DNA of 64,000 nucleotides from Niveispirillum irakense DSM 11586 (GTDB taxonomy: Bacteria > Pseudomonadota > Alphaproteobacteria > Azospirillales > Azospirillaceae). The stretch is from contig NZ_AUCG01000016.1 of NCBI RefSeq assembly GCF_000429645.1, forward strand, positions 1 to 64,000, in the 5' to 3' direction. The position numbers were made by a program, and so were the translations under genes. Each line of letters starts with the position of its first letter. The first letter of the stretch is position 1. Below are positions 37,961-50,171 of this stretch, piece by piece. The notes beneath the pieces are model-generated. The model was not told the origin of the DNA and ran no database searches. It saw only the letters and a list, made by a program, of their open reading frames with translations.

Positions 37961-38045
37961 GCCCAGATGGCGGAATTGGTAGACGCGCAGGTTTCAGGTA
38001 CCTGTACCGCAAGGTGTGGAAGTTCGAGTCTTCTTCTGGGCACCA
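37961..38045 (+). tRNA. tRNA-Leu(CAG), copy 1
   Basis: 85 bases including an encoded CCA. Acceptor stem GCCCAGA/TCTGGGC, anticodon stem CAGGT/ACCTG with loop TTCAGGT and anticodon CAG at 37995-37997, a variable arm with an ACC-GCAA-GGT stem as in class II tRNAs, and T-loop TTCGAGT. Reads CUG, the dominant leucine codon in this GC-rich genome. Identical in sequence to the copy at 38245. Confidence 0.96.
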
Positions 38046-38059
38046 TTCCGAATTGATGT

Positions 38060-38098
38060 ACACTTCAGGCCGCTGGTTCTTCCAGCGGCCTGAAGTGT
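38060..38098 (+). terminator. Terminator after tRNA-Leu copy 1
   Basis: A perfect 17-bp stem (ACACTTCAGGCCGCTGG and complement), loop TTCTT, followed by TTTCT. The same stem recurs after copy 2. Confidence 0.85.
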
Positions 38099-38177
38099 TT
38101 CTAGGCCCCTGTTTTTGCTCGATTTTCACAAGCCGACCCGGTTGGTGACAAATTTCAGCAAAAATGAAAAACAGGTG

Positions 38178-38206
38178 TTGACGGCCCGTCGGCGGGCCTT
38201 TATACA
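38178..38206 (+). promoter_or_regulatory. Sigma-70 promoter of the second tRNA-Leu
   Basis: TTGACG (38178-38183), 17-base spacer, TATACA (38201-38206). The spacing is the same as for copy 1, but the sequence has diverged between the boxes, so each tRNA gene has its own functional-looking promoter. Confidence 0.8.
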
Positions 38207-38244
38207 CCGCCTCCACGAAGCGACGGCAACGCCGCAGCGTGAAC

Positions 38245-38329
38245 GCCCAGATGGCGGAATTGGTAGACGCGCAGGTTTCAGGTACCTGTACCGCAAGGTG
38301 TGGAAGTTCGAGTCTTCTTCTGGGCACCA
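38245..38329 (+). tRNA. tRNA-Leu(CAG), copy 2
   Basis: 85 bases, sequence identical to copy 1, CCA encoded, anticodon CAG at 38279-38281. It begins 284 bases after the start of copy 1. The 30-base leader before it differs from that of copy 1 only at a few positions. Confidence 0.96.
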
Positions 38330-38338
38330 TTTCCAAAA

Positions 38339-38377
38339 ACACTTCAGGCCGCTGGTTATTCCAGCGGCCTGAAGTGT
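38339..38377 (+). terminator. Terminator after tRNA-Leu copy 2
   Basis: The same 17-bp stem as the first terminator with loop TTATT, flanked by AAAA on the left and TTTTT on the right, so it could stop transcription from both sides. rnd follows about 140 bases later. Confidence 0.85.
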
Positions 38378-38519
38378 TTTTGGCCTTGTGCCACAGATCA
38401 CCGAACCCCTTATCGCATCCGACCCTTGCGGCATCACTGCTTGTGGCGTCCCGTACCCTCGCGGGATAAAGCGCGGTGCTGCCGGCGGGCGGCCGCAACC
38501 GATGCAGGATGGCAGCGCG

Positions 38520-39131
38520 ATGTCGAATTTTCTTCATGTTGGTGATTTGCCCGATGGGCTGGATCTGGGCCCCGTGGTCGCCGTGGATACGGAGACGATG
38601 GGCCTGAACCCCATGCGTGACCGGCTGTGCCTGGTTCAGCTTTCCAGCGGCGACGGCACCGCCCATATGGTGCAGATCCGCCGGGGCCAGACCAGCGCCC
38701 CCAATCTGGCGCGGCTTCTGTCCGATCCCAACACCCTGAAGCTGTTCCATTTCGCCCGTTTCGACGTGGCCGTCCTGCGCCATGCGCTGGGCATCGTCTG
38801 CCAGCCGATTTTCTGCACCAAGATCGCCTCCAAGCTGGTCCGCACCTCCACCGACCGGCACGGGTTGAAGGATCTGTGCAAGGAACTGACGGGCGTGGAA
38901 CTGTCCAAGCAGCAGCAATCCAGCGACTGGGGCGCAGACGAGTTGAATGCCGAACAGTTGAAATATGCTGCCTCCGACGTGCTGTATCTGCACGAGATCA
39001 AGGCCAAGCTGGACCTGCTGCTGGACCGTGAAGGCCGGCGCGAGTTGGCGGAAGCCTGCTTCTCCTTCCTCCCGACCCGCGGCCAACTGGACCTGCTGGG
39101 CTGGGATGAACCGGACATCTTCACGCATTAA
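38520..39131 (+). CDS. rnd: Ribonuclease D-like 3'-5' exonuclease
   Basis: 203 residues, DEDDy exonuclease domain only. VVAVDTETMGLNPMRDRLCLVQL (Exo I, with the DxE metal ligands), LFHFARFDVAVL (Exo II), KIASKLVRTSTDRHGLKDL and YAASDVLYLHEI (Exo III, Tyr and Asp). It lacks the HRDC domains of full-length RNase D, the usual short alphaproteobacterial form, which trims tRNA precursors and other RNAs. The ATG at 38520 is preferred over the ATG at 38502. It precedes lptC by about 200 bases and follows the tRNA-Leu pair. Confidence 0.9.
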   Translation: MSNFLHVGDLPDGLDLGPVVAVDTETMGLNPMRDRLCLVQLSSGDGTAHMVQIRRGQTSAPNLARLLSDPNTLKLFHFARFDVAVLRHALGIVCQPIFCTKIASKLVRTSTDRHGLKDLCKELTGVELSKQQQSSDWGADELNAEQLKYAASDVLYLHEIKAKLDLLLDREGRRELAEACFSFLPTRGQLDLLGWDEPDIFTH

Positions 39132-39333
39132 TATAGACGGCATAATGCCGACAGGTGGAGACGGCGGCGGTTCCTGCCGCCGTTTTCTGCGGTCACTGTG
39201 CGTTGCGTCATAGAAATGCCGCCAAATCCTGGCATCTCCTCTATCATTGTCGATCAAGGTCGGGACCCTGACCGCCCCGAAATTCGTTACCATCCCTCTG
39301 CCCGCCGCCCTTTTTATTGAGCCTCCCGCCCGC

Positions 39334-40017
39334 ATGATCCCTCCCTCCGACAGCGACGACAGCCGACGCGCAGCGACCGCCGGCGCGCCCGATGGGCGCC
39401 GGCGTGATCCCTATGCCCATACGCGGCTGGTGCGCACGGCGCGCGTTGCGCTGCCCGTGGTGGCGGGGCTGGTGCTGCTGCTGATCGTGATATGGCCGCT
39501 GGTCGGCGGCGGCGGAGGGTCGGACGGCAAAGGGGCCGGCCCGGACCAGGGCGACCTGGAAATGACCAAAGCCCGGTATCTGGGAACCGATACGACAGAG
39601 CGCCCGTTCGAAATCCGCGCCAACCGCGTGATGCAATTGGGCAATACCGGGGCAGAGGTGGATTTGGACGCTCCGGAAGCCGATATAACGCTCAAAGGCG
39701 GCGACTGGCTGTCCATGGCGGCTGAAACCGGCCGTTATGACCAGGAAAAGAATGTACTGACCCTGAAGGGCAAAGTGTCGATGTTCCATGGCGAGGGCTA
39801 TGAATTCCGCACCGGCGAAGCCTTGCTGGATGTGGATAAGGGCATTGCCTGGGGCAACAAGCCGATTGAGGGACAAGGACCGCTGGGCACAATTGAAGCT
39901 GGCGGCTTCCGTATTGTGGAGGATGGGGACGTGCTGATCTTCACCGGCAAAGCGCGGTTGCGGGCGCTTGCGGCCCGCGGCGGGGACCAGAACCGTCCGG
40001 AAGGGGCTGCCCCATGA
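39334..40017 (+). CDS. lptC: LPS export protein LptC
   Basis: Bitopic inner-membrane component that receives LPS from LptB2FG and hands it to LptA. 227 residues. A cytosolic, Arg-rich N-terminus of about 35 residues, a membrane helix (VALPVVAGLVLLLIVIWPL), then a beta-jellyroll domain (KARYLGTDTTERPFEIRANRV ... LTLKGKVSMFHGEGYEFRT). Overlaps lptA by four bases (ATGA). The ATG at 39334 gives a normal LptC length plus the extended N-terminus common in this class. Confidence 0.9.
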   Translation: MIPPSDSDDSRRAATAGAPDGRRRDPYAHTRLVRTARVALPVVAGLVLLLIVIWPLVGGGGGSDGKGAGPDQGDLEMTKARYLGTDTTERPFEIRANRVMQLGNTGAEVDLDAPEADITLKGGDWLSMAAETGRYDQEKNVLTLKGKVSMFHGEGYEFRTGEALLDVDKGIAWGNKPIEGQGPLGTIEAGGFRIVEDGDVLIFTGKARLRALAARGGDQNRPEGAAP

Positions 40018-40997
40018 CCCGCCCCTCTCCCCTCTCCCCGCGCTTGCGCCGGTCTGCCACGCTGGCCGCCCTTGGCCTGTCGCTTGCCGCCTTGTCGCTG
40101 GCGGTGCCCTTGGGCTGGGCCCAGGACGGCACAACCAGTGTGCAGGCCGATGATGCGTCCCTGCATATGAGCGGGGAGAAGCCCATTGATGTAGTAGCCG
40201 AAGGCGGGTTCGAGTTCCACGAACAGCAGAATGTCGCCATTGCGCGCGGCGGGGCTACCGCCACCCAGGGCGACCTGACGCTGAAGGCTGACACGCTGGC
40301 CGCCTATTTCCGCAAGAATGCGCAGGGCACGAACGAGATTTTCCGCCTGCTGGCGGAAGGTAATGTGGAGATGCGCAGCGCCAGCCAGACCGCCTATGGC
40401 ACGCGCGGCATTTATGACCTGGACCGGTCGGTCGCCGTGCTGACGGGCGAAGGGCTGCGGCTGGTGACCGAACAGGACACTGTAACCGCCACCGACAGCC
40501 TGGAATATTGGCGCGAGCAGAACCTCGCCGTGGCGCGCGGCAATGCTATCGCCATCCGGGAGAATAACCGCGTGCGCGCTGACCGTCTGGTCGCCCTGCT
40601 TTCCCCGGACGGGAAAGAGGGCAGTGACAAGATGGCGCTCAGCCGCGTGGATGCCACCGGCGCCGTGGTCATCACGACCCCGCAGGAAGTGGCCCGCGGC
40701 GACAAGGGCACCTATGATCTGGATTCTGAACTGGCGCTGCTGACCGGCAATGTGAAGGTCACGCGCGGCCAGAATCAGTTGAATGGTCCCGCCGCCGAGG
40801 TGGATCTGAAGTCCGGCGTCAGCCGCATGCTGTCGCGGGTTCCGGCGGCTTCGCCCGTGCAAGGGGGGGCGACAACCGGACCGGCCGGCCAGAATGGCCG
40901 GGTCCGGGGCCTGTTCATCCCCAACGAGCAGGGTCAGGGCGGTGCGCCGCAACAGCCCGCCCAGCCGCAGCCGTCTGGCCAAGGGAGCAAACCATGA
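40014..40997 (+). CDS. lptA: LPS export protein LptA (OstA-like)
   Basis: Periplasmic bridge protein of LPS transport. 327 residues, longer than the about 185 of E. coli LptA. Signal peptide LAALGLSLAALSLAVPLGWAQ; OstA beta-strand repeats such as PIDVVAEGGFEFHEQQNVAIARGG and GDKGTYDLDSELALLTGNVKVTRGQNQLNG are visible in two blocks, suggesting two jellyroll modules, then a Gln/Gly/Pro-rich tail. Translationally coupled to lptC and lptB (ATGA overlaps on both sides). Confidence 0.92.
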   Translation: MTRPSPLSPRLRRSATLAALGLSLAALSLAVPLGWAQDGTTSVQADDASLHMSGEKPIDVVAEGGFEFHEQQNVAIARGGATATQGDLTLKADTLAAYFRKNAQGTNEIFRLLAEGNVEMRSASQTAYGTRGIYDLDRSVAVLTGEGLRLVTEQDTVTATDSLEYWREQNLAVARGNAIAIRENNRVRADRLVALLSPDGKEGSDKMALSRVDATGAVVITTPQEVARGDKGTYDLDSELALLTGNVKVTRGQNQLNGPAAEVDLKSGVSRMLSRVPAASPVQGGATTGPAGQNGRVRGLFIPNEQGQGGAPQQPAQPQPSGQGSKP

Positions 40998-41791
40998 GCC
41001 GTCCGACCAAGCCCACCACGCCCGCCGCTGACCCGTCCACGGGCACCGGCCCCCGGCTGGTGGCCGACAATGCCGGTCTGGTGGCCAGCAACCTGGGCAA
41101 GTCCTATAAAGGCCGGCCGGTGCTGCGCGATATCAGCCTGTCGGTGAAACGGGGGGAGGCGGTTGGCCTGCTGGGCCCGAACGGCGCCGGCAAGACCACC
41201 TGCTTTTACATCATCACCGGCCTGATCCTGCCCGATTATGGCAGCATCACCCTGGATGGGCTGGAAGTGACTGACCTGCCCATGTATCGCCGCGCCCGCC
41301 TGGGCATCGGCTATCTGCCGCAGGAAGCCAGCATCTTCCGCGGCCTGTCGGTGGAAAATAATATCCGCGCCGTGCTGGAGGTGGTGGAGCCGGACCGCGA
41401 TGTGCGCGAACAGAAGCTGGATGAGCTTCTGGCCGAATTCTCCATCACCCATCTGCGCCGCACCCCCGCCATTGCCCTGTCAGGTGGTGAGCGCCGCCGT
41501 GCGGAGATCGCCCGCGCCTTGGCCAGCCAACCCAATTTCATCCTGCTGGATGAACCATTCGCCGGCGTGGACCCGATCGCCGTGAACGAAATCCGGGAGT
41601 TGGTCAGCCATCTGCGCGAACGCAGCATCGGCGTGCTGATCACCGACCATAATGTCCGCGAAACCCTGGATATCGTGGACCGCGCCTATATCCTGCATGA
41701 TGGCGTGGTGCTGATGGAAGGCGCGCCGTCGGAGATTGTCGCCCACAAGGATGTGCGTCGCGTCTATCTGGGGGAGCGGTTCAGCCTTTAA
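40994..41791 (+). CDS. lptB: LPS export ATPase LptB
   Basis: 265 residues. ABC ATPase powering LPS extraction. Walker A GPNGAGKTT (residues 61-69), Q-loop IGYLPQEASIF (the LPQEASIFR sequence is diagnostic for LptB), signature ALSGGERRRAEIARAL, Walker B FILLDEPFAGVDP and H-loop LITDHN. A 25-residue N-terminal extension is present. In most alphaproteobacteria rpoN follows directly; here the bufferin operon lies in between. Confidence 0.96.
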   Translation: MSRPTKPTTPAADPSTGTGPRLVADNAGLVASNLGKSYKGRPVLRDISLSVKRGEAVGLLGPNGAGKTTCFYIITGLILPDYGSITLDGLEVTDLPMYRRARLGIGYLPQEASIFRGLSVENNIRAVLEVVEPDRDVREQKLDELLAEFSITHLRRTPAIALSGGERRRAEIARALASQPNFILLDEPFAGVDPIAVNEIRELVSHLRERSIGVLITDHNVRETLDIVDRAYILHDGVVLMEGAPSEIVAHKDVRRVYLGERFSL

Positions 41792-41892
41792 TATCAAGCT
41801 TTCTTGATCCTGACCGATCAAGGAAGATTTCCAATTCCCTCAACGCCGGGCGCTGCCATCCGGCAACTTGGCTTCACGGCGCACGAGGACGG

Positions 41893-41946
41893 GGCTGGCG
41901 GTCGCCAGCCTCCAGTCAGCCAAGGGGCAAACCCTTGGCTGACTGG
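41893..41946. terminator. Double hairpin downstream of lptB
   Basis: GGCTGGCG-GT-CGCCAGCC (41893-41910) is directly followed by a perfect 15-bp stem with arms at 41912-41926 and 41932-41946 and loop GCAAA. Either could end the lpt transcript. The pair also looks like a dispersed palindromic repeat unit; no second copy was found in this window. Confidence 0.5.
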
Positions 41947-41975
41947 TACAAGCCAAAAATAATTTTGAAGCCGGC

Positions 41976-42001
41976 GTAACCTTTCCGGGGATGCCGCGAA
42001 T
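41976..42001 (+). promoter_or_regulatory. Candidate ECF (SigF-type) promoter of the bufferin operon
   Basis: GTAACC (41976-41981), a 15-base spacer and CGAAT (41997-42001), about 80 bases before bufA1. The elements resemble the GTAACC/CGAA promoter recalled for Caulobacter SigF-controlled bufferin genes. Self-regulation by the sigma factor at the end of this operon is inferred. Confidence 0.6.
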
Positions 42002-42081
42002 AGAGGGATATGGGGCGCTGATCCGGTGCCCCAACCCGCCGATCTCCGGCATTCGCGCATTTTCCCCGAAAGGTCTCCATC

Positions 42082-42381
42082 ATGAAGTCCCAAGCCAGTT
42101 TCGCGCTGTTGTCCCTGGGCGCCGCCGTGGCCGGTGCCCTGTCGCTGGCCGCCATGACGGCCCCGGCCCAGGCGGCCGAAGGCGAGAAGGTGCATTGCTA
42201 CGGCGTTGCCAAGGCTGGCGAGAATGATTGTGCCAACAAGGCCGCCGGCCATTCCTGCGCCACCCAGTCCAAGGTCGATTACAGCGGCCAGGATTTCAAG
42301 GCCATGACCAAGGAAGCCTGTCTGGCCGACGGTGGCAGCCTGACCGCTTTCGAGGGCACCAATCCCAAGAAGATGAAGTAA
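42082..42381 (+). CDS. bufA1: BufA1-type bufferin precursor (DUF2282)
   Basis: 99 residues. A long signal peptide (SFALLSLGAAVAGALSLAAM, then APAQA) is followed by a mature domain of about 68 residues with four cysteines at 39, 50, 59 and 80: KVHCYGVAKAGENDCANKAAGHSC and EACLADGG. This is the DUF2282/BufA1 pattern. In characterised bufferins some cysteines are converted by the MNIO enzyme to 5-thiooxazoles and the exported peptide binds copper in the periplasm. Unlike most RiPPs the leader is a cleavable signal peptide. First gene of the operon; bufB follows after 11 bases. Modification is inferred from the partners. Confidence 0.9.
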   Translation: MKSQASFALLSLGAAVAGALSLAAMTAPAQAAEGEKVHCYGVAKAGENDCANKAAGHSCATQSKVDYSGQDFKAMTKEACLADGGSLTAFEGTNPKKMK

Positions 42382-42392
42382 GGGCCGGTCCG

Positions 42393-43283
42393 ATGCACCA
42401 CCGGCCACCCGATCCCCTGCCCACCCTGCCCGCCATCGCCGGAATCGGTTTGCGACATGCGCATGTCGCGGCCTTCCTGGCCGGACGGCAGCCGGTCGGG
42501 TGGCTGGAGGTGCATGCGGAAAATTATCTATGTGCCGGCGGCCCGCGCCTGGCGCAGTTGGAAAGGCTCCGCCAGGATTATCCGGTCTCCTTCCATTCCG
42601 TGGCCCTGTCGCTGGGTGCCGCCGATGGGGCAGACCCCGCCCATCTGGCCCGCCTGCGCCGGCTTTACGACCGGTTCCAGCCCTGCCTTGTCTCCGACCA
42701 TCTGGCCTGGTCCGGCACGGGGGGCCTGCATGTGCCCGACCTGTTGCCATTGCCGCTGAACAGCGAAAGCCTGACCATCGTCGCCGCCAATGTCGACCGG
42801 GCGCAGGACATGCTGGGGCGGCGGTTGCTGGTGGAAAACCCCTCCCTCTACCTCGCCTTCGTCGATGACGAGATGGATGAGGCCGATTTCCTCACGGCAC
42901 TGGTGGCGCGGACCGGCTGCGGGCTGCTGCTGGATGCCAATAACCTGCATGTCAGCAGCCATAACCGGCAGCGCGACCCGCATGATGTGCTGCGCCGCCT
43001 GCCGGCGGATGCCGTCGGGCAATATCACCTTGCCGGCCATGCAAGGCTGGACGTGGATGGTATGACGATGCTGATCGACGACCATGGTTCCCGGGTCGAC
43101 CCCGCGGTCTGGTCGCTCTACCAAGCCGCGTTGGACCAATGTGGTGCCAGACCGACCCTGGTGGAATGGGATACGGCCTTGCCCCCCCTACCCGTGTTGC
43201 TGGAAGAAGCCGCGCATGCCGACCGGTTGCTGGCAGCCTTTAGCGAACGGGAGGAGACGATATGTCTGCCCCCGTCACGCTGA
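42393..43283 (+). CDS. bufB: MNIO-family bufferin maturase (DUF692)
   Basis: 296 residues. A TIM-barrel multinuclear non-heme iron-dependent oxidase. Family segments: GIGLRHAHV at residues 17-25, EVHAENYL with Glu43/Asn44, FHSVALSL with His68, SDHLAWSG with Asp102/His103, then LLVENPSLYL, LLLDANNLHVSS, QYHLAGHARLD and VDDHGSRV-type metal-binding stretches and VEWDTALP near the end. It oxidises cysteines of BufA in the cytosol before export. The ATG at 42393 follows AGGGCCGG. Overlaps bufC by 22 bases, so the two partners are translationally coupled. Confidence 0.92.
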   Translation: MHHRPPDPLPTLPAIAGIGLRHAHVAAFLAGRQPVGWLEVHAENYLCAGGPRLAQLERLRQDYPVSFHSVALSLGAADGADPAHLARLRRLYDRFQPCLVSDHLAWSGTGGLHVPDLLPLPLNSESLTIVAANVDRAQDMLGRRLLVENPSLYLAFVDDEMDEADFLTALVARTGCGLLLDANNLHVSSHNRQRDPHDVLRRLPADAVGQYHLAGHARLDVDGMTMLIDDHGSRVDPAVWSLYQAALDQCGARPTLVEWDTALPPLPVLLEEAAHADRLLAAFSEREETICLPPSR

Positions 43284-44026
43284 CAACCCTGCTGGGGCGG
43301 TTACAGGCGGCAAGCTTGGGGGATCCCACCGGCTTTGCCGACACCCTGCCGGCATTGCGACCGACATGCCTGCCCCCTGCCAAAGCCCTCTATATCCATA
43401 CCGCCACCGTAACGACGGCCCTGTCCAACCTGTTGGCGGAGGCTTATCCCGCCACCCGTACCCGGATGGGAGAAACAGCCTTTGCCACAGCCGCACGCCG
43501 GTACCTGCTGGCATCCCCGCCTGACCATCCGGTTCTATCCGGCTATGGCCATGGTTTCGCCAATAGTCTGGGGCCGGAACTGGCCTTGATGGCTACTGCC
43601 GATTGGGCCGCGCATGAGGCTTATTTTGCAGCCGATATGATACCGGCGGGACCGGATATCCTGCGGCCGGAAGCACCGGAGGATATGGCGGGGTTGTGCC
43701 TGACCCTTGTGCCATCCGCCCGGATTTTGTCCGGCACTGCCGATATATTCCGGCAATGGCAGGAAATGCGTACCGACCTGCACCATACAGCCCATGCCGA
43801 TCCCGATGCGGCCAACAGCCTCCTGGTCTGGCGTGGACCGGATCTTCTGGTCACCAGCACCCTGCTTCTGCCGGGGGAGCGGGCGCTGGTCATGGCGCTT
43901 ACCGCCGGTCACTCCCTGCTGACGGCAATGACGATGACCGCCGGCAGCCCTCCCTTCGATCTGTCCCTTCTGCTCGCCCTGCTGCTGACACGCGGAATCG
44001 TCGCGGTTCCGCCGCCAGGGTCATGA
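43262..44026 (+). CDS. bufC: BufC-type peptide modification chaperone (DUF2063)
   Basis: 254 residues. The N-terminal DUF2063 domain is visible as TLLGRLQAASLGDPTGFADTL, LYIHTATVTTALSNLLAEAYPATRTRMG, and the HPVLSGYGHGFANSL and AADWAAHEAYFAAD-like segments. These bind the bufferin precursor and deliver it to BufB in the known systems. The C-terminal half contains a long hydrophobic-hydrophilic region (LTLVPSARILSGTADIFRQW ... DLLVTSTLLLP) typical of the family. No signal peptide; cytosolic. The ATG at 43262 lies inside bufB. The N-terminal Tyr/His pattern is intact, suggesting a functional protein. Confidence 0.88.
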   Translation: MSAPVTLTTLLGRLQAASLGDPTGFADTLPALRPTCLPPAKALYIHTATVTTALSNLLAEAYPATRTRMGETAFATAARRYLLASPPDHPVLSGYGHGFANSLGPELALMATADWAAHEAYFAADMIPAGPDILRPEAPEDMAGLCLTLVPSARILSGTADIFRQWQEMRTDLHHTAHADPDAANSLLVWRGPDLLVTSTLLLPGERALVMALTAGHSLLTAMTMTAGSPPFDLSLLLALLLTRGIVAVPPPGS

Positions 44027-44035
44027 GGTTACCCC

Positions 44036-44536
44036 ATGCACATGCACCGGCTTTTCCATTTTCTCATTGATCCTGGTCCGACACTGGGCCTGCGCCCCCT
44101 GCCCCGCCTCGTCACGGCGCTCGCCCTGCTGGCCGGTCGCGTCTGGCTGGCCCTGCCCTTCCTGCGCGCCGGCCTGCACCGGTTGAACAGTTGGGATTCC
44201 CAGGCCTATCTCTTCACCGAAATCCATCCCGTCCCCTTCCTGCCAGCCACGATCTCCGCCCCCCTGACCACGGGGGCGGAGATCGTGCTGGGGCTGGCGC
44301 TGATCGCGGGGTTGGGTGGGCGCGCCGCCGCCGCTGGCCTGGGTGTCATGGCCGCCGCCCTGTTCCTGGTCATTGGCCGCACCCCGCAAGGGTTGGAGAA
44401 TGGCATCGCCCTTGCCGGCGAACAGGTTCCATGGATAGCTGCGGCTCTGGTCCTGACAATTCTCGGTCCCGGCCTGCTTTCCCTGGATGCAGCACGGCGC
44501 CGGCTTTTCTCATCACCCGCCGGCACCCTTCCATAA
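44036..44536 (+). CDS. DoxX family membrane protein (BufD position)
   Basis: 166 residues, about four helices. ALLAGRVWLALPFLRAGLHRL is the conserved first helix of DoxX proteins, then LTTGAEIVLGLALIAGLGGRAAAAGLG and further hydrophobic segments. DoxX proteins often accompany DUF2282/DUF692/DUF2063 genes and are thought to support redox handling of the exported peptide at the membrane. Starts nine bases after bufC. The symbol is left blank because the family is broad. Confidence 0.88.
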   Translation: MHMHRLFHFLIDPGPTLGLRPLPRLVTALALLAGRVWLALPFLRAGLHRLNSWDSQAYLFTEIHPVPFLPATISAPLTTGAEIVLGLALIAGLGGRAAAAGLGVMAAALFLVIGRTPQGLENGIALAGEQVPWIAAALVLTILGPGLLSLDAARRRLFSSPAGTLP

Positions 44537-44548
44537 CGGAGAATGCCC

Positions 44549-44818
44549 ATGAAGCGCCTGACCTTGCTTGTTTCCTTATCCCTGTTTGCCACCATTCCAA
44601 CGGGAACGGTGGCGGCACAAAGCAGCAGTAGTTCAACGCTCACCGCAAGGGAAAAGGCGGAAAAGCAGCAGCAGAACGAAGAAGCGGAAACCCTGTGCCG
44701 GTCGATCCAGGACAAGGACAAGTTCGACGAGTGCATGGATCTTTATTTCCTGGATGCCAAGAAATTCAAGGAGTTCCTGGATAAGCATAGCCGCCGGCCC
44801 GCACCGGCCACAAACTGA
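44549..44818 (+). CDS. Small exported protein in the bufferin operon, unrecognised
   Basis: 89 residues. Signal peptide MKRLTLLVSLSLFATIPTGTVAA followed by a Ser-rich linker (QSSSSSTL) and a highly charged helical domain: AREKAEKQQQNEEAETLC, then IQDKDKFDECMDLYFLDAKKF. Two cysteines, 14 to 16 residues apart in helix-loop-helix context, could form a CHCH-like disulfide or bind metal. No family is recognised. GGAG seven bases before the ATG at 44549 supports translation; the ATG at 44543 is an alternative. It lies between doxX and the ECF sigma gene, so it is presumably part of the same response. Confidence 0.8.
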   Translation: MKRLTLLVSLSLFATIPTGTVAAQSSSSSTLTAREKAEKQQQNEEAETLCRSIQDKDKFDECMDLYFLDAKKFKEFLDKHSRRPAPATN

Positions 44819-44837
44819 CGAGCGGGCCGAAATCCCG

Positions 44838-45392
44838 ATGGGGGAAGCGCAGGATGCCGTGCTGGCCGCGTTGCTAGCCGCAAGCCAACAGGGAGATGGC
44901 ACTGCCTATGCCGCCTTTCTGGCGGCGGTGGCCCCCTTGCTGCGCCAATATGGCCGGGCGAAGCTCGCCGGCCGGACGGCTGATCTGGAGGATTTCGTTC
45001 AGGATAGTTTGCTGAGCCTGCATCAGGCGCGGGCAACCTATCAGCCGGGCCGGCCGGTCATGCCGTGGATTTATGCCATCGCCCGCAACCGGCTGGCCGA
45101 TCTGTTGCGCCGACGCTATCGCCGGCTGGCCGTGGAGGCCGATTATGATGACACCCTGGCCGACAGCGTGCCACAGCCGCCAGTCGAGGAGCCCCCGGAT
45201 CTGGCGCCGTTGCTGGCCCGGCTACCCGCCGGGCAGCGCCAAGCCGTGGAACTGGTCAAATTACAACAACTAAGCCTGCAGGAAGCATCGGCCCGCAGCG
45301 GGGTTGGCATTGGTGCCTTGAAGGTGGCTGTGCATCGCGGCATCGCCGGCATGCGGCAAATGATGTTAGGAAAGGATACGCATGATGGATGA
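44838..45392 (+). CDS. ECF sigma factor (SigF-like)
   Basis: 184 residues. Region 2: LAGRTADLEDFVQDSLLSLHQARATYQPGRPVMPWIYAIARNRLADLLRRRYRR, with the -10 recognition helix and the typical PWIYAIARN. Region 4: LLARLPAGQRQAVELVKLQQLSLQEASARSGVGIGALKVAVHRGI, with the helix-turn-helix. No signal or membrane part. It is the subgroup whose partners are DUF1109/NrsF anti-sigma factors. Start ATG at 44838, 19 bases after the preceding stop. Its last bases overlap the nrsF-like gene, giving a coupled, stoichiometric pair. Target promoter inferred to be the GTAACC/CGAAT site at 41976. Confidence 0.93.
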   Translation: MGEAQDAVLAALLAASQQGDGTAYAAFLAAVAPLLRQYGRAKLAGRTADLEDFVQDSLLSLHQARATYQPGRPVMPWIYAIARNRLADLLRRRYRRLAVEADYDDTLADSVPQPPVEEPPDLAPLLARLPAGQRQAVELVKLQQLSLQEASARSGVGIGALKVAVHRGIAGMRQMMLGKDTHDG

Positions 45393-46056
45393 AACCAGCC
45401 TTCTGATCGAGCGGTTGAGCCGTGAGGCAAAACCGGTACGACGCCTGCCCACCCTGCCCTTGCGTCTGGTGGTTTGGCTGGCCCTGTCCATAGCTCTGAT
45501 CCTTGGCGTGTCGGTTTTCCATGGCATCCGACCCGACCTGCTGGCGATGGCAGGCGATCCGCTTTGGTTGTTACAGCAGGGACTGACCCTCGGCACCGCC
45601 CTGACGGCGGCCCTGTGCGCCCAATCGCTGGGCATACCGGGAAATGGTCGATGGCCCTGGCGGCTTTGGCTGTGCATGCTGGCCGGCTGGACCCTTGCCA
45701 TCCAGATCGACCTGTCCGGCATGGCCGGGCCGCCAGAGGCGATGGCGTCGGATTGGGAACTGTTCTGCCCTTATTGTTTCCCGATCATCGCGATTGGCAG
45801 CAGCCTGGGGCTTTACGCCGATATCCGCCGCGCCGCGCCCCTGGCGCCGCTGCGCACCATGGTGACCCTGGCCATTGCCAGCACCGCGATGGGGATTTTT
45901 GGCGAAAGATTGATCCATGACGATCTGGACGCGCCCTTGCTGCTGCTGATCCAGATTCTGACGATTCTGGCCGCTGCCGCCGTGATGGCACCACTGGGGC
46001 GAGCCTTGTTCCGGTGGCGGAATGGACGCATCCCTCGTAATCTCCAGGGCGAATAA
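45382..46056 (+). CDS. NrsF-type anti-sigma factor (DUF1109)
   Basis: 224 residues, six predicted membrane helices after a cytosolic N-terminus of about 25 residues (DETSLLIERLSREAKPVRRLP) that should bind the sigma factor. A CPYC motif (Cys129/Cys132) lies at the edge of a helix, near WELFCPYCFPIIAIG, with the surrounding segment typical of NrsF proteins; two other Cys are at about 79 and 98. In the Caulobacter SigF-NrsF pair, conserved cysteines in the membrane protein sense heavy metals. Overlaps the sigma gene by 11 bases. The rpoN gene follows after about 160 bases. Confidence 0.9.
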   Translation: MMDETSLLIERLSREAKPVRRLPTLPLRLVVWLALSIALILGVSVFHGIRPDLLAMAGDPLWLLQQGLTLGTALTAALCAQSLGIPGNGRWPWRLWLCMLAGWTLAIQIDLSGMAGPPEAMASDWELFCPYCFPIIAIGSSLGLYADIRRAAPLAPLRTMVTLAIASTAMGIFGERLIHDDLDAPLLLLIQILTILAAAAVMAPLGRALFRWRNGRIPRNLQGE

Positions 46057-46213
46057 GCCACAGTATCTGTAATAATGTTACCCGATCTGCCGTAATTGTT
46101 GCGATATGGAGCCGAGCTTCGTACTGTTGCCGTGTTATATCGGCTGGCTTGGTCTACCCCTGCGAAAGGCGTAGGCTGGGCTCCTTCCTTCAGCATCGGT
46201 GTTTTCAGGGAAA

Positions 46214-47746
46214 ATGGCGCTCCAGCAACGGCTCGATATCCGTCAGTCCCAATCGCTGGTGATGACGCCGCAGCTACAGCAGGCCATCAAGCTGCTGCAG
46301 CTTTCCAATCTTGAGTTATCGGATTTCGTGGAGCGGGAACTGGAGCAGAACCCGCTGCTGGAACGCGACGATGGCGAGGGATGGAGCGATGCCGCCCCCA
46401 ATGGCGTTGACCGGGAGGAAGCAGCCCCCGCCCCTGTTGAGGGGCGCGTCGCCGATACGGTCGAGCTGGCATCCAGTGACCGGATGGGCAGCAGTGACGA
46501 TGCCCCGCTCGATACCGATTTCGAGAATGTCTATACCAACAGTTCTGCCGCCGACCTGGACGGAGCCGGGCTGGGGTCGGGGGAGCAGTTTGGCGACTGG
46601 TCGTCCCGCAGTGGCGGATTCGAGGATGAAGAGAGCAGCCTCGAAGCGACGCTGACCGAGCGGCCCAAGCTGCGAGACCATCTGGACGAGCAGATCAAGA
46701 TGGATCTGCCCGACCCGCTGGACCGCATGGTCGCCTATGCCCTGATGGATCACCTGGATGAGACCGGCTATCTGACCGTCAATCTGGAAGAGGTTGCCCT
46801 GACGCTGGGGTGCGATCTGGCGCGGGTTGAAACGGTCCTGGCCCGGCTGCAACGCTGCGACCCTGCCGGGGTTTTCGCCCGCAGCCTGTCGGAATGCCTG
46901 GCCATCCAGTTGCGGGAGAAAAACCGGCTGGACCCCTGCATGCAGGCTCTGCTGGACAATCTGCCTTTGCTGGCCGCGCGCAACCTTCAGCAATTGCTGA
47001 AAGTGTGCGGCTGCGACGCGGAGGATCTGTCCGACATGGTGTCGGAGATCAAGGCCCTGAACCCCAAGCCGGCCCTGGCCTTCGATTTTGAGCCGGTGCA
47101 GACCGTGGTGCCGGACATCCTGATGCGCGCCGCCCCCAGCGGCGGCTGGATCGTGGAACTGAACACCGACACGCTGCCCCGTGTGCTTGTGAACCAGCGC
47201 TACCATTCCCGAGTCCTGTCGGGTGCGCGCAACAAGCAGGAAAAGGAATATATCGCCGAACAGTTCCAGTCGGCGAGCTGGCTGGTCAAAAGCCTGCATC
47301 AGCGGGCCACCACCATCCTGAAAGTGGCAACGGAGATCGTGCGCCAGCAGGACGCCTTCTTCCTGCACGGGCTGCAATTCATGAAGCCGCTGATTCTGCG
47401 CGATATCGCGGAAGCCATCGGCATGCATGAAAGCACGGTCAGCCGCGTCACCACGAACAAGTTCCTCTCCAGCCCGCGCGGCGTGTTCGAGCTGAAATAT
47501 TTCTTCACCTCCGCCATCCAGGGGGCCGATGGGCAGGCTGCGCATTCCGCAGAGGCGGTGCGCTTCCGCATCAAGGCTCTGATCGATGCCGAGAAGGCCG
47601 ACGACACCCTTTCGGATGATAAAATCGTCGAGATTCTTCGGAGTGAGGGGATCGATATTGCGCGACGGACCGTCGCCAAGTATCGTGAGGGTATGAAGAT
47701 CCCATCTTCAGTCCAGCGCCGTCGGGAGAAGGCCCTTGGGTTGTAG
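46214..47746 (+). CDS. rpoN: RNA polymerase sigma-54 factor
   Basis: 510 residues. Region I: LQQRLDIRQSQSLVMTPQLQQAIKLLQL and the VERELEQNPLLE box, Gln/Leu-rich and needed for activator response. An acidic, low-complexity region II of about 90 residues follows, then the core-binding region. The C-terminal DNA-binding part has the helix-turn-helix (ITxHESTVSRVTTNKF-like, here AIGMHESTVSRVTTNKFL) and the RpoN box ARRTVAKYREG. Directs nitrogen, flagellar and other activator-dependent genes; bacterial enhancer-binding proteins are not in this window. The ATG at 46214 gives the family start MALQQRL. Confidence 0.96.
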   Translation: MALQQRLDIRQSQSLVMTPQLQQAIKLLQLSNLELSDFVERELEQNPLLERDDGEGWSDAAPNGVDREEAAPAPVEGRVADTVELASSDRMGSSDDAPLDTDFENVYTNSSAADLDGAGLGSGEQFGDWSSRSGGFEDEESSLEATLTERPKLRDHLDEQIKMDLPDPLDRMVAYALMDHLDETGYLTVNLEEVALTLGCDLARVETVLARLQRCDPAGVFARSLSECLAIQLREKNRLDPCMQALLDNLPLLAARNLQQLLKVCGCDAEDLSDMVSEIKALNPKPALAFDFEPVQTVVPDILMRAAPSGGWIVELNTDTLPRVLVNQRYHSRVLSGARNKQEKEYIAEQFQSASWLVKSLHQRATTILKVATEIVRQQDAFFLHGLQFMKPLILRDIAEAIGMHESTVSRVTTNKFLSSPRGVFELKYFFTSAIQGADGQAAHSAEAVRFRIKALIDAEKADDTLSDDKIVEILRSEGIDIARRTVAKYREGMKIPSSVQRRREKALGL

Positions 47747-47866
47747 TCCCTGCGCTGACCGTACGAGGAAGACCCGCCCGGGGGATTCTCCCGGACTGGA
47801 TGCCGGACCCGGGTGGCGGTTCCTCGCTAACGGTCAAAAGCGCGCCTGATAAAGAACAGGTCGAAT

Positions 47867-48487
47867 ATGCAAGTCACCGTCAAAGGCAAGCAACTGGATG
47901 TGGGCGACGCCCTGCGGACCCATGTGAAAGAACAGCTCGCTACTCAGGTCGGCAAATATTTCGGCAACCCTGTGGAGGCAACCGTCATCCTTTCCAAGGA
48001 TGCCAATCGCTACAAGGCGGATATTCAGGTCCATGCCGGGCGTGGCATCCTTCTGCAATCCACCGCGGAAGCGAACGAGCCCTATCCCGCCTTCGATGAG
48101 GCGGCGGAAAAGGTCGCCAAGCGGCTGCGGCGCTACAAGCGCCGATTGAAGGACCATCACGAGCGCAAGACCCTGGCGGAGCTGCCGGTTACGACGGCGC
48201 GCAAATATATCCTGGAAGCCGACGGCGAGGAGGCCGAGGGCCAGGGGGATGAATCCGACGCGGCGCCGGAAGTCAATGGCCATCACGCGATGATCGTGGC
48301 CGAGATGGAAACGGCGATCGAGATGCTGACCGTGAGCGAGGCCGTGATGCGGATGGACCTTGCAGATTTGCCCGCTTTGATGTTCCGTAATCGCGCACAT
48401 GGCGGTCTGAACATGATCTACCGCCGTCCGGACGGCAATGTCGGCTGGGTCGACCCCGCTGGCACGACCGGAACCGTGAAGCAATGA
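47867..48487 (+). CDS. hpf: Ribosome hibernation-promoting factor, long form
   Basis: 206 residues. N-terminal S30AE domain (QVTVKGKQLDVGDALRTHVKEQL ... DEAAEKVAKRLRRYKRRLKDHH), a charged linker, and the C-terminal dimerisation domain (VMRMDLADLPALMFRNR, NMIYRRPDGNVGWVDP). The long form is sufficient to make 100S ribosome dimers. Located in the conserved rpoN-hpf-ptsN block, 120 bases after rpoN and 15 bases before ptsN. Confidence 0.95.
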   Translation: MQVTVKGKQLDVGDALRTHVKEQLATQVGKYFGNPVEATVILSKDANRYKADIQVHAGRGILLQSTAEANEPYPAFDEAAEKVAKRLRRYKRRLKDHHERKTLAELPVTTARKYILEADGEEAEGQGDESDAAPEVNGHHAMIVAEMETAIEMLTVSEAVMRMDLADLPALMFRNRAHGGLNMIYRRPDGNVGWVDPAGTTGTVKQ

Positions 48488-48502
48488 GGCGATTTATTAC
48501 CT

Positions 48503-49018
48503 ATGTCCGTTTCCCTACGTTCTCTCTCCTCCTCCTCGCAACAGACGTCCCCGGCTGCAATGAATGATCTTCTGAAGCCGGAGGCGATCCTCCCGAGCCT
48601 GAAGGCCAGCTCCAAAAAGCAGGCCTTGCAGGAACTGGCGAAGAAGGCCGCCGAGCTGACCGATCAGCATGAGCGTGCCATTTTCGATGTGCTGGTGGAG
48701 CGGGAACGCCTGGGCACCACGGGCGTGGGCCGCGGCATCGGTATCCCGCATGGCAAGCTGCCGGGCCTGCCCGGCGTGATGGCCATCTTCGCCCGGCTGG
48801 AAAAGCCGGTCGATTTCGAGGCGATCGACGAACAGCCGGTGGATCTGATCTGCCTGCTGCTGGCCCCGGAAGGGGCCGGGGCCGATCACCTGAAAGCGCT
48901 GGCGCGGGTGTCGCGCCTGCTGCGGGATCAGGTGCTGTGTGACAAGCTGCGCGGCGCGGAATCGGGCGATGCCCTTTACGCACTGCTGGCCCAGACCGAA
49001 CAGGTCAGTGCGGCCTGA
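48503..49018 (+). CDS. ptsN: PTS system EIIA-Ntr protein
   Basis: 171 residues. Nitrogen-related phosphotransfer regulator. LLKPEAILPSLKASSKKQALQEL at the start of the domain; phosphorylated His in GVGRGIGIPHGKLPGL; DLICLLLAPEGAGADHLKALARVS in the second half. Start: ATG at 48503 has a weak GAGGCG upstream and gives a 19-residue Ser-rich extension; ATG at 48560 (MNDLLKPEAI) matches the common family start but lacks a ribosome-binding site. A strong terminator follows. Confidence 0.93.
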   Translation: MSVSLRSLSSSSQQTSPAAMNDLLKPEAILPSLKASSKKQALQELAKKAAELTDQHERAIFDVLVERERLGTTGVGRGIGIPHGKLPGLPGVMAIFARLEKPVDFEAIDEQPVDLICLLLAPEGAGADHLKALARVSRLLRDQVLCDKLRGAESGDALYALLAQTEQVSAA

Positions 49019-49045
49019 TCCGGACTGAAACCATCTGGTCGTGAC

Positions 49046-49077
49046 AAACCGGCGCCCTGGCAACAGGGCGCCGGTTT
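49046..49077 (+). terminator. Intrinsic terminator after ptsN
   Basis: AACCGGCGCCCTG stem, loop GCAA, complementary arm and TTTTCGTTT on the right. A textbook rho-independent terminator closing the rpoN-hpf-ptsN cluster. Confidence 0.9.
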
Positions 49078-49162
49078 TCGTTTAAGGCGATCCGCCATGG
49101 TCGGAACCGATCAAGGTGGGTTTCGTGTTCCCCTGCGCCTTGTCGCCTGCACCGGGCTGGGA

Positions 49163-49474
49163 TCACATCAGCGCAAGGCCGATGAAGATGCTGGCAATAC
49201 TGGCGACCAAGACCAGGCCGCAAATGACCAGCACCACCTTGCGCGCGGTTGACAGAGGCGGCATCCGGGCATCGGGTGCCACGTTTTGTGCCTGCATATG
49301 GCCGATGGTGCCAAAGGCCAGGGCCCCCACCAGGGCGCCGATAAAAGCGTAGACCAGAACACCGGACGCGCCCGGCATGTCGCCCCCCTGCCGCGCCAGC
49401 GCCACCATGGGGCCGGGCCCCACCAGCACCCCGATCAAAGCCCAACGAACGCGAAGTGCGGTGCGCATCAGCAT
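49163..49474 (-). CDS. Small membrane protein
   Basis: 103 residues, about three helices: RWALIGVLVGPGPMVAL, VLVYAFIGALVGALAFGTIG and KVVLVICGLVLVASIASIFIG. A loop of about 20 residues lies between the last two. No family is recognised. GGTGGAGGTGATCC before the ATG at 49474 is a strong ribosome-binding site, supporting translation. It converges on the ptsN terminator. Confidence 0.65.
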   Translation of the reverse strand: MLMRTALRVRWALIGVLVGPGPMVALARQGGDMPGASGVLVYAFIGALVGALAFGTIGHMQAQNVAPDARMPPLSTARKVVLVICGLVLVASIASIFIGLALM

Positions 49475-49727
49475 GGATCACCTCCACCTATGTCATAGAT
49501 TGAGTAATTTCAAAATTACAACATTTAAAATAAATCAATCTCACAAACAAATAAATACAAACCATACATCAGGAAATATTCTCAGACTGCTTCCACTATA
49601 AATACTTAAGAAATAGAAATTAAATTTTTAGTATTTTATGGTTTAAATTTCCCCAAAAAATTCTCTTGAAAAGTCCAAAAATTAATAATAAGAATCACTA
49701 TCATCAACCGATGGCGATGAGGAACCA
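49475..49727. other. AT-rich intergenic tract, edge of an islet
   Basis: Very AT-rich: only 11 of the 60 bases at 49501-49560 are G or C, against a surrounding genome well above 60 percent. No gene is seen. It probably contains the promoter of the gene at 49728 (TTGAAA near 49668 and AT-rich sequence after it). No inverted repeat, attachment site or transposase was seen. Confidence 0.7.
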
Positions 49728-50171
49728 ATGAAAATCTTCAAATTTATCATCCCATTAGCGGCTGTTTTGGTTAGCAAAGCAGGATTTGCCGGGGTCGTTG
49801 ACCTAACAATGTTCTCTCGAGCAAATTGTGTCGGTGTAAACGAATCAATATCCTGGGCGGGCACTAGTATAATTAGCAAGGATTATCAGTTCAATTTAGC
49901 CATAATATCAAATCAAGATAACTCGGAATTGCAATTGAAACGCTCCTTCATGGAAGGATATGAACAAACATGGAGGCTACATGCTGGGTGCTTTCTTTGT
50001 GGAGATGATGGATGGTTTGTAGAAGCTGAGCACTTTGCCGACCCTATGAATAAGGAACAAGAAGAGTATCTTGAACAGTATTGCGATTCCGATTGGACTA
50101 ACTCCGGTCAATCTTTTTCTGGCCCATGCAAAGCAACAACTGCAACAGATTGCAATCTTGAGGAGTGGTAA
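49728..50171 (+). CDS. Exported Cys-rich protein of unknown function, AT-rich gene
   Basis: 147 residues. Signal peptide MKIFKFIIPLAAVLVSKAGFAG; the mature part has six cysteines (ANCVG, HAGC, FLCGD, QYCDSD, GPCKA, TDCNLEEW), enough for three disulfides, and is acidic. No family is recognised. GAGGAA seven bases before the ATG supports the start. Codon use is AT-rich and unlike neighbours (many AAA, ATA, TTA, GAA). It ends four bases before the next gene; the two probably form an operon of transferred origin. Confidence 0.75.
   Translation: MKIFKFIIPLAAVLVSKAGFAGVVDLTMFSRANCVGVNESISWAGTSIISKDYQFNLAIISNQDNSELQLKRSFMEGYEQTWRLHAGCFLCGDDGWFVEAEHFADPMNKEQEEYLEQYCDSDWTNSGQSFSGPCKATTATDCNLEEW

Follow-up and report, generated by a model that had tools for sequence, protein, structure and literature searches.

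We analysed a 64,000-nucleotide stretch of Niveispirillum irakense DSM 11586 (contig NZ_AUCG01000016.1, positions 1 to 64,000; hereafter the window), in which the interval between lptB and rpoN is filled by seven plus-strand genes. This filling of the interval in a Niveispirillum-group genome is real and is confirmed here. We read the genes as a Buf1 operon for bufferin biosynthesis whose main regulators are encoded within it, namely an extracytoplasmic function (ECF) sigma factor of the ECF16 type and its partner anti-sigma factor NrsF; we give this reading a probability of about 0.78. The cassette is ordinary in its parts and unusual in its layout and place. Its NrsF has the second cysteine relocated from the published position, and this finding bears on the mechanism of the switch. 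The order of the genes is BufA/DUF2282, MNIO BufB, DUF2063 BufC, DoxX, smX, ECF sigma and NrsF, and the features of the region are as follows.

40994-41791, plus strand: lptB, the left flank (NCBIfam TIGR04406, 373 bits, cut-off 240)
41912-41946, no strand: perfect 15-bp inverted repeat with a 5-base loop in the lptB-bufA gap (by reading the sequence)
41976-42000, plus strand: candidate SigF/ECF16-type site GTAACC-N15-CGAA (motif scans; the consensus published in PMC3511200 is GTAACC-N16-CGAA)
42082-42381, plus strand: bufA, bufferin precursor (Pfam PF10048, DUF2282, 55 bits, above cut-off)
42393-43283, plus strand: bufB, MNIO maturase (NCBIfam NF050167, 361 bits, cut-off 310; Pfam MbnB_TglH_ChrH, 328 bits)
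43262-44026, plus strand: bufC, DUF2063 partner protein (PF09836, 49 bits)
44036-44536, plus strand: doxX-family membrane protein (PF07681, 42 bits)
44543-44818, plus strand: smX (name coined here), small protein (no Pfam or NCBIfam family above cut-off)
44838-45392, plus strand: sig, ECF sigma factor (PF04542, Sigma70_r2, 45 bits; PF08281, r4_2, 31 bits; above cut-off)
45382-46056, plus strand: nrsF, membrane anti-sigma factor with six helices in its model, C129-P-Y-C132 and H179 (PF06532, 68 bits)
46199-47746, plus strand: rpoN, the right flank (NF004596, 738 bits)

The Pfam matches, each above its cut-off, and the NCBIfam matches bear out the gene identities that an earlier note had proposed for this DNA, smX being the small gene left without a family. 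The same note had described a tight co-directional layout with a sigma/anti-sigma pair in the gene run, and this also holds: the gaps along the cassette are 11, -22, 9, 6, 19 and -11 bases, and sig and nrsF overlap by 11 bases 3' of smX. BufA is a DUF2282 protein, the Buf1 of the literature (PMC12452194), with an apparent export signal judged by eye; against NCBIfam it matches the BufA2 model only, below cut-off (42.5 vs 60). The MNIO enzyme and the DUF2063 partner adjoin this precursor. Four BufA cysteines (C39, C50, C59 and C80) are kept in 23/23 aligned homologues, and H68, H103, E148, D181, N183, H212, D229, H231 and E258 of BufB in 25/25; the 25 are the window plus loci that were fetched, and as two of the latter lacked a usable bufA match, 23 remain for BufA. 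Because the BufA cysteines and the histidine, acidic and asparagine positions of the MNIO protein are conserved, the cassette genes look undecayed. MNIO and NrsF genes occur once each in the whole genome. The sigma factor has regions 2 and 4 and an overlapping NrsF/DUF1109 partner gene; its SigF/ECF16 assignment is judged from that partner and from the promoter. Sigma and NrsF genes have already been reported in Buf1 clusters (PMC12452194).

The full seven-gene cassette is found in identical order in 8 of the 11 genomes of the genus, and in a ninth carrier, G004, the promoter and bufA lie where a contig ends. All eight full cassettes have GTAACC-N15-CGAA 5' of bufA, across four chromosomal settings, and a scan of these eight gave no second same-strand SigF-type site; the one opposite-strand match lies inside bufC of locus L083. 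In the window, the first base of the site, 41976, is where the interval of the earlier note began. We counted the site as a target promoter of the GTAAC(C)-N16/17-CGAA kind, and it is assigned to the sigma factor by sequence match. When all 11 whole genomes were scanned, the strict form GTAACCTT-N13-CGAAT was present exactly once per carrier (9/9), each time at bufA. It was found 0 times in the two non-carriers, G003 and G007, whose whole genomes also gave no MNIO gene, and the reversed-pattern control gave 0 in the 11 genomes.

From this arrangement we infer that bufABC-doxX-smX-sig-nrsF is probably a private autoregulated operon with one promoter. Alternatively, as in Caulobacter, sig-nrsF could have a start of its own and form a second transcription unit that overlaps bufABC-doxX-smX. 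The units are separate in most mapped relatives, and the basal sigma factor needs a source; yet all eight cassettes lack a same-strand SigF-type site from doxX to sig, the gaps in that stretch are only 0-38 bases, and positions 42000-45400 of the window hold no sigma-70-like match on the plus strand. We therefore regard two units as quite improbable.

Our best reading is that this one-promoter operon would act as a private, self-amplifying response to copper stress. At rest, NrsF would tether the sigma factor to the inner membrane. Excess copper in the periplasm (or another thiol-reactive metal or oxidant) would react with the paired thiols C129 and C132 of NrsF, perhaps aided by H179, and release the sigma factor, which would then drive transcription from the GTAACC-N15-CGAA site 5' of bufA. 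The predicted single transcript would encode the exported precursor, the MNIO/DUF2063 pair expected to mature it, DoxX, smX and, lastly, the sigma factor and NrsF. As these two would be made last from the same transcript, the response would amplify itself and then reset. The mature bufferin would sequester copper in the periplasm. The copper reading is by homology, because bufferins are reported to sequester copper through thiooxazoles (PMC12452194) and the sigF mutant of C. crescentus is reported to be copper-sensitive, its SigF regulon being copper-induced (PMC8224329).

It is possible, though rather unlikely, that the switch senses oxidants or hypochlorite and not copper, so that the operon would chiefly answer oxidative or thiol stress, with copper buffering secondary. 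The NrsF homologues OsrA (H2O2 and other reactive oxygen species; PMC3420878) and AbcS (HOCl) are reported to be oxidant-responsive, the CPYC pair would suit disulphide formation, and a DoxX homologue has been tied to oxidative or sulphur stress (PMC12452194). On the other hand, the sole strict site in the genome precedes bufA; therefore no methionine-sulphoxide-reductase gene is a target with that site, unlike in oxidant-type regulons. Moreover, C. crescentus SigF, acting on the same kind of genes, is reported as copper-induced (PMC8224329), and PMC3511200 describes its targets as not induced by agents generating reactive oxygen species.

The sensing step of the copper reading depends on NrsF. 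In the AlphaFold2 model of the window protein (mean pLDDT 87.5), residues 25-47, 60-82, 91-112, 132-151, 156-178 and 184-209 form six long helices, consistent with its PF06532 match. No PDB fold relative was found at E 0.001 or better, and a sequence search gave only two marginal lipoprotein signal peptidase matches (E 0.03). In C. crescentus the conserved cysteines are C131 and C181, and the double mutant is fully derepressed, as reported in PMC3511200; for OsrA of B. japonicum, PMC3420878 assigns C129 to sigma binding and C179 to release. Both cysteines of these NrsF relatives are thus reported to matter for sigma control (PMC3511200, PMC3420878), and, according to PMC6180224, it is not known exactly how ECF16 sigma factors become activated. 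The window protein has another pair: its first cysteine is C129, the second published position is occupied by His179, and C132 completes a CPYC motif. CPxC with His179 is present in 8/8 NrsF proteins of the genus. Cysteine at 179 is missing in 35/88 family members; the pair described in print therefore varies within the family, and its absence does not exclude the window protein from NrsF membership.

The 88 proteins all have C129, and 85/88 have exactly one further cysteine at 111, 132 or 179. The first set (n = 39; 8 genus and 31 class proteins, some weaker or second matches being left out) has it at 111 in 13, all with His179, at 132 in 11 (8 with His179 and 3 with Glu179) and at 179 in 15. 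The second set (n = 49), from a phylum sample, consists of 29 new loci, mostly high-scoring, and 20 hand-chosen ones, mostly weak-scoring, an extra L167 copy being dropped. Here C129 is kept in 49/49, and exactly one further cysteine at these positions is found in 46/49 when aligned by MAFFT and 45/49 by hmmalign, under which L167 shows two such cysteines. The exceptions are L194, with a cysteine in none of the three columns and a cysteine pair near 111, and L196 and L210, each with a cysteine immediately before His179. With the N-terminus inside, the helix ends of the model would place positions 111, 129, 132 and 179 at or near the periplasmic ends, the loop with C129 being of low confidence (mean pLDDT 62, residues 121-130). 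PMC3511200 places C131 and C181 in the periplasm; PMC3420878 places C129 in the membrane.

These results support, without proving, one two-thiol site with a movable partner of Cys129. On the simplest reading, Niveispirillum and the Glu group would have acquired the CxxC form independently. A more far-reaching proposal can be offered tentatively, and we think it has the smaller chance of being correct. NrsF would sense through a two-thiol site in which Cys129 is invariant and the second thiol has moved among the periplasmic-face spots 111, 132 and 179, with His or Glu at 179 when moved. Niveispirillum would then combine a vicinal CPxC plus His site of the soft-metal type with the private one-promoter operon and the lineage-specific smX into a compact Cu(I)-triggered circuit, its input chemistry unlike that of Caulobacter. 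Models to date rest on Cys129/Cys179 mutants; natural NrsF proteins that retain Cys129 but have their second thiol at another position offer a direct way to tell whether the switch is a disulphide, a metal site or something different.

Several observations weigh against the copper-responsive, self-controlled operon and the two-thiol site. The N15 spacer lacks one base relative to the N16 reported for Caulobacter. Looser forms of the motif are uninformative by number: GTAACCTT-N11-13-CGAA occurs 1 time in the genome vs 4 in the reversed control, and GTAACC-N15-16-CGAA 8 vs 26. A sigma-70-like match at 41935-41963, just 5' of the SigF-type site, may provide basal or other control, or it may be due to chance (2 found, 1.4 expected); sigF of C. 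crescentus has a second, SigF-independent input. RpoE7 of S. meliloti is reported as unresponsive to H2O2, cadmium and chromate in PMC6180224. Single C131S or C181S mutants of C. crescentus are described as derepressed yet still inducible (PMC3511200), unlike the sharp role split in B. japonicum. Finally, the cysteine-position states change about 3 times on a quick tree built without these columns, and because there are only about three switches the two-thiol rule rests on few events. The loose motif forms were dropped as regulon finders, since the reversed controls match more often.

Comparison of the lptB-rpoN interval in relatives agrees with the earlier note, which had held that rpoN normally follows lptB directly and that the cassette appeared to have been inserted into this conserved block. 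Elsewhere in the family, the two genes are adjacent in 36/36 genomes from other genera (intergenic gap 8-772 bases, median 30.5). This rules out the insertion as the family's ancestral state, an outcome that the note had named as its refutation. Of 32 genomes sampled from other families, 21 yielded both genes, which are adjacent in 17 and split between contigs in 4; the 11 uncounted ones gave rpoN only (3), lptB only (5) or neither (3). The insertion is the derived state, and the cassette is confined to one clade of the genus, a group of soil and water bacteria, within which its neighbours have changed. The setting lptB / cassette / rpoN is found in the window, G002 and G008, and the filled interval measures 4.4-4.6 kb (3 genomes). 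In G006 the cassette stands between lptB and gltB, rpoN being on a different contig; in G001 and G009 it stands between rplQ-gst and rpoN, and there lptAB is on a different contig (gltB, rplQ and gst are identified by eye). In G005 and G010 the cassette is at an unrelated site and lptB-rpoN is closed; it is closed in G004 as well.

At the left edge of the cassette in G001 and G009 (L063/L071) there is a rearrangement breakpoint, behind rplQ-like and glutathione-transferase-like genes identified by eye. In G006 (L085/L214), nrsF is followed by a gltB-like gene, and the rpoN contig carries genes that are found at 55.6-59 kb in the window; provided that the assembly is correct (270 contigs, 5% contamination), the rpoN block has moved locally.

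The rpoN tree groups the nine carriers (100/99) beside G003 and G007, G004 entering with 28% of columns. Within the carriers it separates the window with G001 and G009 (87/83) from G002, G004, G005, G006, G008 and G010 (100/100). The groups of the cassette tree (eight rows) match the rpoN groups where both are resolved, the placement of the window not being fixed. As the lptB-adjacent position occurs in both halves of the carrier clade, the simplest account is that the cassette was gained once, on the stem of the nine-species clade and into the lptB-rpoN slot, and was later rearranged to new neighbours. Alternatively, there may have been two independent insertions.

Repeated lateral acquisition inside the genus could also have given the lptB-rpoN placement. 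The cassette proteins are far more diverged than rpoN (58% vs 92% identity, window vs G001), the window, G001/G009 and the third group are about equidistant in the cassette comparison, and the joining of the window to G001/G009 in the rpoN tree is moderately supported. The match between cassette and rpoN groups speaks against it, as does the guanine-plus-cytosine (GC) content of the cassette (0.64-0.66), which is within the flank range. Furthermore, inspection by eye of the open reading frames (ORFs) at the edges revealed no integrase or transposase, the family searches there covering lptB, rpoN and hpf, and smX was found only in the Niveispirillum group in a scan by two peptide patterns. We consider repeated acquisition unlikely and prefer one gain followed by rearrangements. 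A recent foreign origin was also examined by composition and rejected, the outside blocks in 38000-48999 (GC 0.59-0.67) giving no sign of it.

Comparison of the G008 cassette with the empty lptB-rpoN sites of G004, G005 and G010 showed no scar of a lost cassette above shuffled scores; the G005 cassette scored 24-27 against these sites, without a shuffled baseline. At the filled sites of G002 and G008, 184-221 bases of right flank, starting at most 15 bases after the nrsF stop, show 83-86% identity to the empty sites, and the left junction could not be placed in the same comparison. The flanks of the window, G001 and G009 gave no alignment to the empty sites above shuffles.

The smX gene occupies the same position in 8/8 full cassettes of the genus. 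Its product has an apparent export signal (by eye), two invariant cysteines, C52 and C64, and the block EEAExLCxxIxDxDKFxECxDLYFxD; 29 columns, the two cysteines included, are invariant across the eight proteins. A model from this eight-row alignment (mean pLDDT 70) has helices at 35-52, 58-70 and 72-82. The two-pattern contig scan found no smX beyond the genus: its six loci are all in carrier genomes, and it missed the window and G005 copies. The protein may assist the system in the periplasm, or it may be a further substrate of the MNIO enzyme.

Among the other features of the region, the inverted repeat at 41912-41946 may be an end signal of lptAB transcription. Its core occurs once in the window and in 0 of 100 shuffles; no T run follows it, and the terminator scan does not list it. 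Two tRNA-Leu(CAG) genes lie about 200 bases apart at 37961-38045 and 38245-38329, and the ORFs called across them are spurious. The segment 49000-50900 is AT-richer (GC 0.49 in 49000-49999) and has two small exported-looking ORFs just 5' of the gltB-like gene.

We compared the layout with that of other genomes of the class. NrsF matched in 37/192 (34 above cut-off), and in 16 it lies within 5 kb of an MNIO gene, as counted by hand from coordinates. Twelve of these are divergent, one is co-directional with nrsF upstream (G147), and 3 are co-directional with nrsF downstream (the window, G005 and G111). The earlier note had thought the arrangement noteworthy; it is a minority layout (3/16), and it is not unique to the genus, as G111 and G294 (from a phylum sample, with the gene order of G111) share it, and sigma/NrsF genes in Buf1 clusters are, as cited above, already published. 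Like the window, G111 and G294 (L138, L199) have bufABC-doxX-sig-nrsF in one run with one SigF-type site 5' of bufA; they differ in having no smX between doxX and sig and an NrsF of the C111+C129+H179 type. They belong to another family and are an independent parallel to the operon proposed here; the one-run form thus seems to have had two or more origins. A third layout, in G178 and G433 (L143/L203), has bufA-doxX-sig-nrsF running one way and bufB-bufC running divergently, the latter accompanied in L203 by a second bufA. Among the papers listed in searches of the open-licence literature, none was found on the lptB-rpoN insertion, the one-run layout in Niveispirillum or alternative second NrsF cysteine positions. 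With all outputs and the regulator in one gene run, the one-site layout offers a simple natural bufferin stress circuit.

Three described systems are close to this one. In S. meliloti, an ECF16 pair, RpoE7-EcfR7, likewise controls DUF692/DUF2063-type genes (SMb20530-SMb20527), whereas the units are divergent with a promoter each, and both cysteines are reported as conserved (PMC6180224). EcfF-OsrA of B. japonicum shares the six-helix NrsF-family anti-sigma factor and autoregulation; it differs in a regulon that includes methionine sulphoxide reductases and in its reported need of Cys179 for the H2O2 response, where the window protein has His179 (PMC3420878). The earlier note had given sigF-nrsF and the bufferin operon as separate loci in Caulobacter. 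This contrast was mistaken, because CC3252 (nrsF) and CC3253 (sigF) adjoin CC3254-CC3257 there (PMC3511200), and PMC8224329 describes them as one cluster. The C. crescentus locus shares the DUF2282-DUF692(MNIO)-DUF2063-DoxX order, the neighbouring SigF/NrsF genes and a GTAACC..CGAA promoter (PMC3511200). According to the published accounts, its sigF-nrsF and bufferin genes are adjacent but separate units with one site each, while the window has one run with one strict site. The C. crescentus SigF acts in addition on another bufferin-type operon and on a YedY-type gene. The C. crescentus NrsF is reported with C131 and C181, whereas the window has C129, C132 and H179, together with smX and the N15 spacer.

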